DNA of 64,000 nucleotides from assembly GCA_001897675.1 (NCBI GenBank), contig MKUE01000136.1, positions 46,431 to 110,430 of the forward strand. The letters run 5' to 3'. The notes beneath the pieces were generated by a model. It did no database searches and was not told the origin of the DNA. It worked only from the letters and a program-made list of their open reading frames with translations. A program made the translations under genes and the position numbers. This DNA comes from Thiobacillus sp. 65-1059 (GTDB lineage Bacteria; Pseudomonadota; Gammaproteobacteria; Burkholderiales; Thiobacillaceae). The first letter of the stretch is position 1, and each line of letters starts with the position of its first letter. This document shows positions 2,378 through 27,165 of the stretch, piece after piece.

Positions 2378-4472
<2,095 letters not shown>

Positions 4473-4476
<4 letters not shown>

Positions 4477-4560
4477 CTACGGCGGTCTCAACCGCATCAG
4501 GTTCGAAGGGTATGTCTCACTCCATCCGGCGCAACATCCGGCTGGAGACCCCTGGCAAGC
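4473..4560 (-). promoter_or_regulatory. TPP riboswitch (thi box) upstream of thiC
   Basis: Minus strand ...GGAGTGAGACATACCCTTCGAACCTGATGCGGTTGAGACCGCCGTAGGGA..., followed by thiC. Confidence 0.9.
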
Positions 4561-4635
4561 GGCTCAAGGTAGCCGAAATGTGGAATAATTGCAAGGCAAT
4601 ACCCCATCTAACTTATTGATATTCAAGGGCACCGC

Positions 4636-5289
4636 ATGGACATGGAACAGGCGCGCTACAACATGGTGGAACAGCAGATCCGCCCCTGGGATGTGCTGGA
4701 TCAGGACGTGCTCGACCTTCTGTTCAAGGTGCGCCGCGAGGATTTCGTGCCGCAGGCGCACCGCGCCCTCGCCTTCGTCGACATGGAAATTCCGCTTGGC
4801 CACGGCCAGACGATGTGGACGCCCAAGCTGGAAGCGCGCGCCATCCAGGAACTGGCGATCCGCGCCACCGACCGCGTGCTGGAAATCGGCACCGGCAGCG
4901 GCTACCTCACCGCCCTGCTGGCGGCCGAAGCCGCCGCGGTGGTGTCGGTCGACATCGTGCCGGAATTCACCGCCGCCGCGGCGCAGAAGCTGCACGCGCA
5001 CGGCTTCGGCAATGTGACGCTGCACAGCGGCGACGCCGCCCGCGACTGGCCCGACGAAACCGGTTTCGACGTCATCGTGCTGACCGGCTCGACCCCGCTG
5101 CTGGCGGACGCCTTGCGCCGCCGCCTCCGCGTCGGCGGGCGGCTGTTCGCGATTGTCGGCGAGGCGCCCGTCATGCAAGCGCAGCTCGTCACCTGCACCG
5201 CGCCCGGCGCCACCCGCAGCGTGACCCTGTTCGAAACCAGCGTGGCGCCCCTGCTAAACGCGCCGCAGCCGGCAGCTTTCGTATTCTGA
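4636..5289 (+). CDS. Protein-L-isoaspartate O-methyltransferase family protein
   Basis: DRVLEIGTGSGYLTALLA, VGGRLFAIVGE; Pcm-like. Confidence 0.88.
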   Translation: MDMEQARYNMVEQQIRPWDVLDQDVLDLLFKVRREDFVPQAHRALAFVDMEIPLGHGQTMWTPKLEARAIQELAIRATDRVLEIGTGSGYLTALLAAEAAAVVSVDIVPEFTAAAAQKLHAHGFGNVTLHSGDAARDWPDETGFDVIVLTGSTPLLADALRRRLRVGGRLFAIVGEAPVMQAQLVTCTAPGATRSVTLFETSVAPLLNAPQPAAFVF

Positions 5290-5292
5290 GTC

Positions 5293-5610
5293 ATGCGCCA
5301 GTTGCGCCCTGCCGAACTTGCCGCCTACCTGCAGGCCGGACACACGCCGGTGCTGCTCGACGTGCGCGAGTCCTGGGAATGGAACCTGTGCCATCTACCC
5401 GGCGCCATCCTGATCCCGATGCATGAGCTGCCCGCGCGCCTGCAGGAACTGGACAAGGACGCCGAAACCGTGCTCATCTGCCATCACGGCGTGCGCAGCT
5501 TTCACGCCGCCCGCTATCTGGAAACGCTGGGCTTCGGCGACGTGGTCAACCTGTCGGGCGGCGTGGCCGCCTGGGCCGACGAGGTCGATTCGGCCATGCC
5601 GCGCTACTGA
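5293..5610 (+). CDS. Rhodanese-like sulfurtransferase
   Basis: LLDVRESWEWNLCHLPGAILIPM ... VLICHHGVRS (active-site Cys loop). Confidence 0.92.
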   Translation: MRQLRPAELAAYLQAGHTPVLLDVRESWEWNLCHLPGAILIPMHELPARLQELDKDAETVLICHHGVRSFHAARYLETLGFGDVVNLSGGVAAWADEVDSAMPRY

Positions 5611-14247: not shown

Positions 14248-15390
14248 ATGCTGCCCGCTCCCTCCCCCGACGCCCTCGCCCACAGCCGGCGCGTCGCCGC
14301 GCATCTGCGCGCACTGATCGAAAACGCCGGCGGCTGGATCCCCTTCTCGCGCTACATGGAGGCCGCGCTATATGCGCCGGGCCTCGGCTACTACGCCGCC
14401 GGCGCGATGAAATTCGGCGCCGCCGGCGACTTCGTCACCGCGCCGGAACTCACGCCGCTGTTCGGCCGCACGCTGGCGCATGCGATCGCGCCGCTGCTGG
14501 CAGAGAGCGGCGGCGAGGTGCTGGAACTGGGCGCCGGCAGCGGGCGGCTGGCGGTTGACCTGCTGGGCGAACTGGAACGGCTTGGCGCATTGCCGGCCCG
14601 CTATTGCATCCTGGAGGTAAGCGCCGACCTGCGCGAACGCCAGCAGCGCACGATTGCGCGCGCACTGCCGCATCTGCGCGAGCGGGTGCAGTGGCTGGAC
14701 GAACTGCCGGCGCATTTCGGCGGCGCCATCCTCGGCAACGAGGTGCTCGACGCGCTGCCGGTGGAACTGGTGCACTGGACGGAAAGCGGGCCGCTGGTGC
14801 GCGGCGTGGCGCTGGAAGGCGAGGCGTTCGCCTGGCGGGACCGGCCCATCGCCGACCCGCTGCTGCGCGCCCGCGCCGAGGCACTGAACCTGGCGCCCGG
14901 CTATCTCTCCGAGATCAACCTGGCGGCCGATGCGCTGATCGCCTCGCTTGCGCAGTCTCTGGAACGCGGCCTGCTCCTGCTGATCGACTACGGCTTTGCC
15001 GCCGCCGAGTATTACCACCCGCAGCGCCACATGGGCACGCTGCGCGCGCATTACCGCCACCATGCGCTGGACGATCCGTTCTATCTGCCGGGCCTCGCCG
15101 ACCTCACCGCGCACGTCGATTTCAGCGCGGCGGCGCGGGCGGGGATGGTGGCGGGACTCGAACTCGCGGGCTACGCCAGCCAGGCGGGCTTTCTGCTGAA
15201 CGCTGGGCTCGCCGAGCTGCTGATGCAGACGCCGCCCGCCGATGCGGCAGCCTACCTGCCGCAGGCCAATGCGGTGCAGCGGCTGGTGTCGCCGGCCGAG
15301 ATGGGCGAGCTGTTCAAGGTGATCGGGTTGAGCAAGGGCGTGGCGCCGCTGTCGGGGTTTGCGCGCGGTGACCGCCGGCACACGTTGTAA
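14248..15390 (+). CDS. SAM-dependent methyltransferase, MidA/NDUFAF7 family
   Basis: ALYAPGLGYYAAGAMKFGAAGDFVTAPELTPLFGRTLA; LGNEVLDALPVE. Confidence 0.92.
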   Translation: MLPAPSPDALAHSRRVAAHLRALIENAGGWIPFSRYMEAALYAPGLGYYAAGAMKFGAAGDFVTAPELTPLFGRTLAHAIAPLLAESGGEVLELGAGSGRLAVDLLGELERLGALPARYCILEVSADLRERQQRTIARALPHLRERVQWLDELPAHFGGAILGNEVLDALPVELVHWTESGPLVRGVALEGEAFAWRDRPIADPLLRARAEALNLAPGYLSEINLAADALIASLAQSLERGLLLLIDYGFAAAEYYHPQRHMGTLRAHYRHHALDDPFYLPGLADLTAHVDFSAAARAGMVAGLELAGYASQAGFLLNAGLAELLMQTPPADAAAYLPQANAVQRLVSPAEMGELFKVIGLSKGVAPLSGFARGDRRHTL

Positions 15391-15699
15391 GGCGTTCCTG
15401 CCAAGCAAACCGCCCCACCCGCTCGGGCTTTCAGGTTACCTGATTGGCCTTGAGCCATTGACTGTCGTCGACCTGGAATAAGCGAGGAAGGTCGAAGGCG
15501 TCCGGTTATCAGCCATTACGGCCCTTCGGGCCGTTCGTTGCCTCAGTCACCTATCGGCCAGAAGCGGTCGTCTGAGCATTTCTCCCACAGCAGACATTCC
15601 GTCCGGATATCATTGCATATACGGACAAACCGCTTCGACGAACCGACCATGAATCAAGCAGTTACGACACATCAGCATGTTCTACGAAATTTAATAATA

Positions 15700-15715
15700 C
15701 AGACCGACCGGTCTG
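15700..15715. promoter_or_regulatory. TetR/NemR-type operator
   Basis: Perfect inverted repeat CAGACCG-AC-CGGTCTG next to AT-rich taataata. Confidence 0.6.
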
Positions 15716-15725
15716 GTGAATAACT

Positions 15726-15732
15726 GTTAGGC
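15726..15732 (+). mobile_element. Integron core site-like junction (G|TTAGGC), left edge of putative gene cassette
   Basis: GTTAGGC fits GTTRRRY, 5 bp before the ATG at 15738. Confidence 0.6.
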
Positions 15733-15737
15733 ATCCC

Positions 15738-16277
15738 ATGCGCAGCTTTCACGTGAGATCAAGAAGATCAATCTTGGGGTTACTACATCTCGCGACCTAC
15801 CCCGGCGTGGCTATGGCAAGGGGTTATCACAGCCATTCACAAATGCCTGACTGGATGGTTTCGCTTATTCTCATTGTTGGGGCGGCATTTCTATTGCTGT
15901 TTTCGCTTGGAGGTGCCGCCACGAATTGGAATAACAAGAATTACTTGAAGACTGTAGTTTGGGTGACAGTAGCGGGCCTTTCGTGCTGGCTCATTCTGAG
16001 CCAGATTAACTGGGGCTATATGGCTGGCCTTAGTTTTTTAGGTACCTCTTGGTTATTGTTTGGTTTGGTTATTTTTGCGATCGGCTTCTTACTTAAAGTT
16101 CTTGTTGGTATTTTCTTTAAACCGGCCCGCGAAACATCAACCGAGGAATTCATTCAGGGAGCGGCTTCCATTGTAGGCCTCATCGGTGGCTCGATTTTCT
16201 TCATTCTGATGTGGGCAATGATATTTCTTGGTATTCCAATAGCGATCATTTCTAAGCTATTCGGGCTATGGGAGTGA
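15738..16277 (+). CDS. Multi-pass membrane protein of unknown function, cassette gene 1
   Basis: Several hydrophobic segments; lower GC than neighbours. Confidence 0.65.
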   Translation: MRSFHVRSRRSILGLLHLATYPGVAMARGYHSHSQMPDWMVSLILIVGAAFLLLFSLGGAATNWNNKNYLKTVVWVTVAGLSCWLILSQINWGYMAGLSFLGTSWLLFGLVIFAIGFLLKVLVGIFFKPARETSTEEFIQGAASIVGLIGGSIFFILMWAMIFLGIPIAIISKLFGLWE

Positions 16278-16281
16278 CGCT

Positions 16282-16806
16282 ATGCCGCAGACGCTAGATA
16301 TTGAGTCGTTCGATCCACTCGCCTGGGTCAATGCCTACACCCAGACAGCAATACACGGCGCTGTTGTTGAACCGATTCTTCACTTCTCACTAATGTGGAA
16401 TCTCTTTGAGCGAGATGCCTGCGGGAAAGAAGCCACTCGAACAAAGATCGGGGCTATTGTTTCATCTGCAGCTTCGGCCGGTTTGCTCTCGTTAGAGCCG
16501 TTCGCCGAGCATCTCACCTTCTTTCAAGATCGAGCCCAACGTGAAGGCATGGAGATCAAGCAGTATCTAAATGCCCTCAAGATGGAGAATGCAAAGGACC
16601 GTCACCTCGTCCACGAGGTTCTCGACGATCGAACGAATGAACCTAAGAAAGTAGTGCACGCGCTCTTGCTTATTGCTCATCGCGTCCGAAACAATCTCTT
16701 CCATGGGGAAAAGGAGGTCGCCTACCTCCATGCCCAAGTCAGCCTGTTTCGTGCGGTGAACTCGTTGATCGCGACCTACCTCACGGTGACGAAAAGTGCT
16801 GCCTAA
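16282..16806 (+). CDS. HEPN-like domain protein, cassette gene 2
   Basis: HRVRNNLFHGEKE fits the HEPN R-x4-6-H signature; starts 5 nt after the previous stop; stop codon is inside GCCTAAC. Confidence 0.6.
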   Translation: MPQTLDIESFDPLAWVNAYTQTAIHGAVVEPILHFSLMWNLFERDACGKEATRTKIGAIVSSAASAGLLSLEPFAEHLTFFQDRAQREGMEIKQYLNALKMENAKDRHLVHEVLDDRTNEPKKVVHALLLIAHRVRNNLFHGEKEVAYLHAQVSLFRAVNSLIATYLTVTKSAA

Positions 16807-16871
16807 CATTCCCATCAAACATCAAACGGGACGCTCTAAAGCGCGCCCCTTATGTCAGGCGAACGTCTGCT
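16801..16871 (+). mobile_element. attC-like recombination site (3' edge of putative cassette)
   Basis: GCCTAAC (RYYYAAC), then CGGGACGC-TCTAAA-GCGCGCCCC imperfect inverted repeat, TTATGTCA, degenerate right core AACGTCTGC. Confidence 0.6.
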
Positions 16872-17097
16872 TTTCAAACCGGCCAGCTCCCGCTTTGGGT
16901 CGGTAGCAGTCGTTGGAGGGCAAAGTAGCGAGTGGCCGTTCAGACTGAACAAGAGACGGTCTGACACCTCAACCTGAACTTCTGCTCCTGGCCGACAGCC
17001 GTCAACTACCGCCCGGCCTCGAAGCTTGAGCAATCCACGCTGCAAAAAGAAAGCGGCTCCACTTTCGCGAGCCGCTTCAGACACCCTTGCTGCAAAT

Positions 17098-17958
17098 CTA
17101 AACCAGCGGCAGTTGCGCTTCCACTTCCGCTTCCGGCTGCAGGCGGGTGACGCGCACCGCGTGCAGGCGGCGGCTGTCGGCGCGCAGGATGCTGAAATTG
17201 AAGCCGTCGAATTTCACCGATTCGCCGCGCTTGGGCAGATGGCCGAAACGCGACACGATGAGGCCGCCGACGGTGTCGAATTCCTCGTCCGAGAAATGCG
17301 CACCGAGAGTCTGGTTGAAGTCGGCGATTTCGGTGCCGGCCTTGACGCGGAACACGCCTTCCTTCTCGCGGATGATGTTGTCCTCGGTTTCGTCGAAGTC
17401 GTATTCGTCCTCGATGTCGCCGACGATCTGCTCGAGCACGTCCTCGATCGTCACCAGCCCGGCGACGCCGCCGTATTCGTCGACGACGATGGCGATGTGG
17501 TTGCGGTTGGAGCGGAACTCCTTCAGCAGCACGTTGAGCCGCTTCGACTCCGGGATGAACACCGCCGGACGCAGCATGCCGCGGATGTCGGTGTCGGCCT
17601 CGGCGTAGTGGCGCAGCAGGTCTTTCGCCAGCAGGATGCCGATGACGTCGTCGCGGTCCCGGTCGATGACCGGAAAGCGCGAGTGCGCGGTTTCGATGGC
17701 ATGCGGAATGAAGATTTCAGGCGCGTCGTTGATGTCGATGACTTCCATCTGCGCGCGCGGGATCATGATTTCGCCGACCCGCATTTCGGACACCTGCAGC
17801 ACGCCCTCGATCATCGCCAGGGCGTCGGCATCCATCAGACTGTTTTCGTAGGCGCCGTGCAGCAGTTCGATCAACTGCTCGCGGTCTTCGGGCTCGCGCA
17901 TCAGCCAGTGGGAAATGCGCTCAAGCAAACTCGGCTTGGGACTACTGTCGGGCTCCAT
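17098..17958 (-). CDS. corC: CorC/HlyC-family transporter-associated protein (CBS pair + CorC_HlyC domain)
   Basis: VGEIMIPRAQMEVID, RFPVIDRDRDDVIGILLAKDLL, VVDEYGGVAGLVTIEDVLEQIVGDIEDEYD. Confidence 0.93.
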   Translation of the reverse strand: MEPDSSPKPSLLERISHWLMREPEDREQLIELLHGAYENSLMDADALAMIEGVLQVSEMRVGEIMIPRAQMEVIDINDAPEIFIPHAIETAHSRFPVIDRDRDDVIGILLAKDLLRHYAEADTDIRGMLRPAVFIPESKRLNVLLKEFRSNRNHIAIVVDEYGGVAGLVTIEDVLEQIVGDIEDEYDFDETEDNIIREKEGVFRVKAGTEIADFNQTLGAHFSDEEFDTVGGLIVSRFGHLPKRGESVKFDGFNFSILRADSRRLHAVRVTRLQPEAEVEAQLPLV

Positions 17959-26095: not shown

Positions 26096-26164
26096 GATGA
26101 ATTCCGGTTTGGGCGCCCGCTTCCCCGCAGGCGCGTTGCACGATCCGCTGGGCGACTTCCGTCG

Positions 26165-26345
26165 CGACAGGGCTCAGGCCGGTATCCGGGCTCGCGCTTG
26201 AAGTGCATCGCCTTCCCGGGCGAACCCAGTGGCGGTGTGATGGACCGTTTAGCGCTTACCGTTGCGGGGGCAGCACAGGCATGGCGGCAAAGCCGCGCAC
26301 CTGTTTCCCGTTTACCCTCGGCGGCGGAAAGCCGCGTCGGCACCT
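26165..26345 (-). promoter_or_regulatory. Cobalamin riboswitch upstream of btuB/cobO
   Basis: Minus strand GGTGCCGACGCGGCTTTCCGCCGCCGAGGGTAAACGGGAAACAGGTG...GCTGCCCCCGCAACGGTAAGCG...; B12-box-type GCCACTGGGTTCGCCCGGGAAGG. Confidence 0.92.
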
Positions 26346-26462
26346 GAAGGCGCGCATTATACGGATCGGATTGAGCGGCCGCACATCGCCCCCTGCGGAA
26401 GCGTCGCTGCGCAGCAGCGGGGCACCCACCGGCGTATCCCTTGCAGATGCTATAGTCCCGCA

Positions 26463-26970: not shown

Positions 26971-27154
26971 TGTTCCCTGCGGTGTTCGAGGCTGGTTGCA
27001 ATTTCTCTGAACCAATGCATACGTGCAAGGCTGCGGTCTATTCCGATGCGGGTGTGCGCGTGACATGTCTCATGTGCCCAAAGTGTCTTTGAACGCGGCC
27101 GTCTTGAACCCAGGTTCAAGAGTCCGCAGCCAGTCACGGCACAGGCGGGGAACC
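26971..27154 (+). ncRNA. ssrS: 6S RNA
   Basis: Location between zapA and fau; complementary ends TTCCCTGCGGTG...CAGGCGGGGAA; ~185 nt noncoding. Confidence 0.85.
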
Positions 27155-27165
27155 CTCATTTCCTG

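Follow-up and report, generated by a model that had tools for sequence, protein, structure and literature searches.

A probable integrase-less mini-integron with an attI-like site and conserved ends carries a HEPN-like gene cassette in Thiobacillus

Introduction

Gene cassettes that lie without an integrase are usually read as products of decay or of off-target insertion. CALINs can arise by off-target insertion (PMC8618304). Apart from those of class 1, attI sites have been little characterized and go undetected by software (PMC9024848), so that a family of mobile attI sites would be invisible to programs that consider only intI and attC. A Tn402-like class 1 integron with MITE-like units on either side is known from Gillings 2009, as cited in PMC8618304. 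HEPN domains, which are found among cassette-encoded proteins, carry an Rx4–6H motif with a polar residue after the R at the end of helix 3, and HEPN proteins in integron cassettes have been proposed as dormancy RNases (PMC3710099); HEPN backup effectors have been described in BREX (PMC12839542). A survey of the open-access literature for orphan or solo attI sites, intI-less integrons and integrons with MITE-like ends did not bring up any account of an element like the one reported here.

Results

In the stretch of 64,000 nucleotides analyzed here (the window), positions 15726 to 16871 had been predicted to hold a lone integron-type gene cassette with a degraded right core. The marks named in that prediction are all present: GTTAGGC at 15726–15732, GCCTAAC at 16801–16807 overlapping the TAA of the second ORF, the stem CGGGACGC/GCGCGCCCC, and TTATGTCAGGC and GAACGTCTGC. 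GC content is indeed lower in this segment (0.46–0.51 as compared to 0.62–0.72 in the surroundings). A covariance model of attC, built from 16 sites in integron arrays from this genus and the order to which it belongs, gave its best match in the whole 64-kb window exactly at the cassette end (16820–16860, + strand, 20.1 bits, E 0.0057), the next-best match reaching 10.9 bits and E 1.2; the prediction of an integron-type cassette with a degraded right core is confirmed. Damage to the site accounts for the incomplete match: extra bases lie between R'' and L'', and R' has lost GTT (GAAC here, GTTGAAC in intact copies). The attC core is near-identical to attC sites in integron arrays of the genus (e.g., L182). 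The cassette, comprising two ORFs and attC, was accordingly placed at 15727–16860 (+) by its low GC, its TTAGGC start, its attC end and the different cargo found at this position in sister copies, and the degraded attC at 16801–16860 (+) by the attC model. An Rfam scan gave no match at the cassette locus; elsewhere in the window it matched a cobalamin riboswitch (26161–26362), a TPP riboswitch (4457–4563) and 6S RNA (26971–27155), all ordinary.

The second ORF (16282–16806, +) encodes a HEPN-like protein of 174 aa with the motif RVRNNLFHGEK, a predicted RNase as judged by family alignment and structural model. Among 31 aligned members of a family that spans Proteobacteria, Bacteroidota, Acidobacteria, Chloroflexi and others, E43, R84, R134 and the run R136-N-N-L-F-H141-G-E-K are invariant. 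The AlphaFold model (pLDDT 92.7) is all-helical, with the invariant E in an early helix and R136-N-N-L-F-H141 at the end of helix 121–140, before the last long helix. Foldseek with this model returned no match at E 0.001, the family profile matched no PDB sequence, a search for pEK499_p136 (PF18736) members, in which no control gave a signal either, found none, scans of both ORFs with Pfam, NCBIfam and PADLOC gave nothing above cut-off, and the 31 family members shared no consistent Pfam match. Motif, helix layout and defense context all fit the HEPN identity originally assigned, but Foldseek gave no significant fold match.

Relatives of the HEPN-like protein were found with an HsdR-like protein on one side and an HsdM-S fusion on the other (L025), in BREX between PglX and PglZ (L054), with the PglZ neighbor recurring at L059, L060 and L064, beside AAA/SMC-type ATPases with PADLOC matches (L033, L050 and L053), beside a Piwi protein (also L033), and next to HsdS (L061); several other scanned neighbors gave no PADLOC match. 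Relatives with RNNLFHGEK are mostly tightly spaced within BREX, type I R-M and AAA/SMC-type loci. The link of the family to defense is by association and suggestive, the neighbors being hand-picked rather than a measured enrichment. A defense role for the protein is likely, most likely as an RNase that would cut RNA and arrest growth during phage attack, and the RNNLFHGEK family is a candidate for a common backup RNase.

The first ORF (15738–16277, +) encodes a predicted membrane protein of 179 aa with about four hydrophobic segments, for which no convincing relative was found in 399 genomes of the order, in plasmids or in viral contigs, nor any relative in the HEPN-relative loci fetched. The two proteins had been proposed to form a dedicated two-gene defense or toxin–antitoxin system, a reading that agrees with the close spacing of the ORFs (4 nt as measured, rather than the 5 nt first given), with a GGGAG stretch before the second start, and with the location of HEPN relatives in defense operons. 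The co-occurrence check nevertheless found no membrane-gene partner beside HEPN relatives. The two closest relatives (67% and 66% identical) lack the membrane gene, and that of Rhodoferax antarcticus (67% identical) forms a cassette alone in an intI-bearing integron. As the membrane gene has no relatives among the sequences searched, the two-gene system is unsupported, and we consider it quite improbable; the membrane protein may be a co-expressed passenger, or a partner.

The predicted extent proved too small: the cassette is real, and the true unit is a repeated element at 15554–16902, composed of a left part of 172 bp (end plus attI), the cassette, and a right end of 42 bp. The left end (LE; 15554–15603, +) is inverted-repeat-like (TCGGCCAGAAGCGG...AGCAGACATTC) and forms the conserved start of the copies in the genus. 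The attI (15598–15726, +) runs up to the crossover G15726^T15727 and was recognized by its conservation to the crossover in genus copies and its likeness to the attI of an intI-bearing integron, L210. The right end (RE; 16861–16902, +), recognized by its conserved start, combines the attI resident half (GTTGAAC elsewhere) with an inverted-repeat-like end, CCGCTTTGGGTCG, and nearly all complete copies agree on the base at which it begins. The layout is constant, comprising the left part, a crossover G^TTRRRY, one or more cassettes, and a right part that starts G^TTGAAC in intact copies. Inverted, the consensus ends agree imperfectly in two blocks, TCGGCCAGAAGCGG / CCGCTTTGGGTCG and AGCAGACATTC / GAACGTCTGCT, at about 10 of 13 and 10 of 11 bases. 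A mini-ORF of 24 codons, read from the sequence at 15649–15723 (+), ends just before the crossover; most genus copies share it, and L187, L188 and L190, which belong to other families, have it in the same frame. It is a predicted ORF only, and its conservation may instead be that of integrase-binding DNA. No sigma-70-like promoter (Pc) was recognized in the left part (15390–15800). End-like motifs (TCGGCCARAAGCGG...) are also dispersed without attI (16940–16995 of the window; L225–L236), and window positions 16947–16995 match many places in the genus.

The element lies between convergent genes for a methyltransferase (14248–15390, +) and a CorC-like protein (17098–17958, −). These flanking genes are separated by 45 bp in the closest relative, G061; G013 matches 127 bp to the left and about 165 bp to the right of the insert, yet carries another insert. 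A base-exact empty site for the window copy was not found in the orthologous intergenic regions of G061 and G013. The G013 insert (L101, 2770–3435) is about 0.67 kb long and has one ORF, no recognized attC, and the same chromosomal flanks as the window site; the convergent-gene interval shared by the two is perhaps an insertion hot spot.

Of 56 genomes in the genus, 19 carry the left segment, whole or in part, at a total of 37 places; the right 42 bp are present on many of these contigs, oriented alike. Fetching 35 loci for comparison yielded 19 further copies with both ends. The left part of the window element is 79–90% identical to 16 compared copies and the right part 76–93%, bar one misaligned copy. 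One genome (G025) holds the element at up to five places, each with different cargo. Comparison of the 33 cargo proteins that reach 100 aa, drawn from 20 copies including that of the window, gave no match between copies at E 1e-3, and the only cassette shared at the DNA level is that of L146 and L149, which lie at different loci (89% over 477 bp). The window copy holds one attC, and some others have two or three by the attC model; attC-model matches end at the RE junction in roughly every second copy, among them L146, L148, L149, L153 and L154. At L152 (G019:C137) and L156 (G067:C29), 700 bp of both flanks are shared (91% and 87%), so that these represent the same chromosomal site in two species. 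Their cassettes are unrelated and neither has intI between left end and attI, making this pair the strongest natural example of cassettes being exchanged where intI is missing in cis. The HEPN-type motif RN-x3-H occurs in 5 of 33 element cassette proteins as compared to 1 of 145 background ORF proteins (p 0.0009; p 0.004 after removal of one probable chance match). The left consensus is absent from plasmids, and the exact left pattern from the viral contigs searched.

Across the order (399 genomes), further families also have the inner 135 bp of the left part. Over these 135 bp, the attI consensus is 83% identical to the attI that separates intI from the first cassette in L210, from a genome of another family (G091), where the order is LE (4168), intI (5244..4306), attI (5353–5487), five cassettes and RE (8494). 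This intI is intact (313 aa) and divergently oriented; four of the cassettes have attC matches at E ≤ 0.022, and the last a weak one (E 0.13). Past the 3' end of intI, on the side remote from attI, comes the LE sequence, which matches the outer 50 bp of the left part; the right end follows the last attC. As read from this sequence, the complete form is end, intI, attI, cassettes, end. Since the L210 ends enclose intI, the genus copies look as if they derive from such a form by loss of intI, LE having become fused to attI. In other families, intI-less copies also have LE close to attI, with differing junctions that suggest either repeated deletion or subsequent erosion. In a genome of another order of the class (L241, G678:C13), the two stretches found on either side of intI in L210 lie immediately next to each other, with identities of 92% (73 bp) and 94% (201 bp) around the missing gene; such likeness across orders points to horizontal transfer.

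These comparisons bear on the original view of the locus as a lone, CALIN-like or secondary-site insertion (i.e., attG-like or CALIN-type insertion at a non-specific chromosomal site). A single cassette with no intI recognized in the window would be expected from such an event. The same 172 bp and 42 bp, however, recur at many places around cassettes unrelated to one another, and the left part is the attI of an integron that has intI; because the cassette occupies the attI of an element that is itself repeated and has conserved ends, we set this view aside as extremely improbable.

No integrase lies near the cassette, as the original prediction had it, and no integrase ORF lies between LE and attI. 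The only intI above the family cut-off in the same genome sits on another contig (G000:C72) and belongs to a different type, sharing about 50% identity with the L210 intI and having an attI of different sequence. Integrases of the L210 type were found at five loci in the genus (L203, G012:C67; L204, G016:C5; L205, G032:C3; L206, G016:C22; L208, G022:C209). They are 58–84% identical to that of L210 over matched pieces; three of the five copies are broken, and their attI sites have diverged. Across the 36 genus genomes in which co-occurrence was counted, the element is carried by all four with an L210-type integrase and by 9 of the 32 others (p 0.012, small numbers).

Target-site duplications were not recognized in the flanks of copies. 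A joined-flank search for four element sites found insert-free sites in relatives for two copies, at junctions too diverged to show a target duplication. No transposase ORF was recognized between the ends of L210, and none could be tied to the element ends. Spread by recombination between repeats is therefore possible, given also that end motifs occur alone. In its full form, this alternative holds that the copies are decayed chromosomal integrons scattered by homologous recombination between extragenic repeats, without dedicated mobility. Occurrence of the end motif TCGGCCARAAGCGG without attI, the missing target duplications and the frequent frameshifts in related genus integrases are consistent with such decay; the constant placement of the ends relative to attI in about 20 copies, the up to five places with different cargo in G025, and the intI-less copy in another order with an attI 94% identical are not readily accommodated by it. 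We judge it rather unlikely, and transposition in trans is the preferred inference for movement of the element.

Discussion

Taken as a whole, 15554–16902 is very probably one copy of a dispersed, integrase-less mini-integron, the anatomy and history of which are well supported at the level of sequence comparison. An ancestor with intI would have given rise to the genus elements by deletion of intI; cassettes would then be captured at attI by site-specific recombination, with IntI supplied in trans, and the whole unit would spread through its ends, probably with a transposase acting in trans. Cassette swapping by homologous recombination is a possible alternative to site-specific capture. Besides the missing target-site duplication and transposase and the differing integrase of the same genome, points against the mini-integron reading are that no cassette-free element was found in the 56 genus genomes (pattern search, 3 mismatches) and that no sigma-70-like promoter was recognized in the left part.

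A broader proposal, to which we give tentative credence somewhat short of an even chance, is that of a “distributed integron,” in which many mobile attI sites, each with a single or few cassettes, are scattered along the chromosome in place of one array beside one integrase, and are loaded and exchanged in trans by an integrase elsewhere in the genome or by passing mobile elements. If true, each copy would bring its cassette into new genomic surroundings; many of the loads look defense-like. The excess of RN-x3-H proteins suggests that element cassettes provide a travel route for defense genes. Widespread mobile attI sites that have lost intI would constitute a further origin of integrase-less cassettes, and the question of whether an attI platform can work and be selected without an integrase in cis is thereby made testable.

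Among described HEPN proteins, that of an integron cassette (PDB 3jrt) and the pEK499_p136-like (B) group (PMC3710099) resemble the window protein in the Rx4H motif with N after R at a helix end, in their occurrence in integron cassettes, and in their R-M and Pgl/BREX neighborhoods; unlike the known superfamily, the window protein has no Pfam, NCBIfam, PADLOC or significant fold match. As cited in PMC8618304, MITE-flanked class 1 integrons share with the present element a non-autonomous mobility of integron parts by repeat ends; here, in contrast to what is described there, the ends belong to the mini-element itself and intI is missing. With integrons in general, the element has in common an attI-like docking site, the TTRRRY crossover and attC-ended cassettes, whereas the genus copies examined lack intI and are bounded by constant ends, and an integron is one array whereas these elements occur as several small copies per genome. 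CALINs and single-attC elements (PMC9024848, PMC8618304) likewise hold one or more cassettes without an integrase, and annotation software would place the window element in this class. A CALIN, however, is defined by attC alone; the window element adds a conserved attI and conserved ends, and with these present, new cassettes could be accepted.
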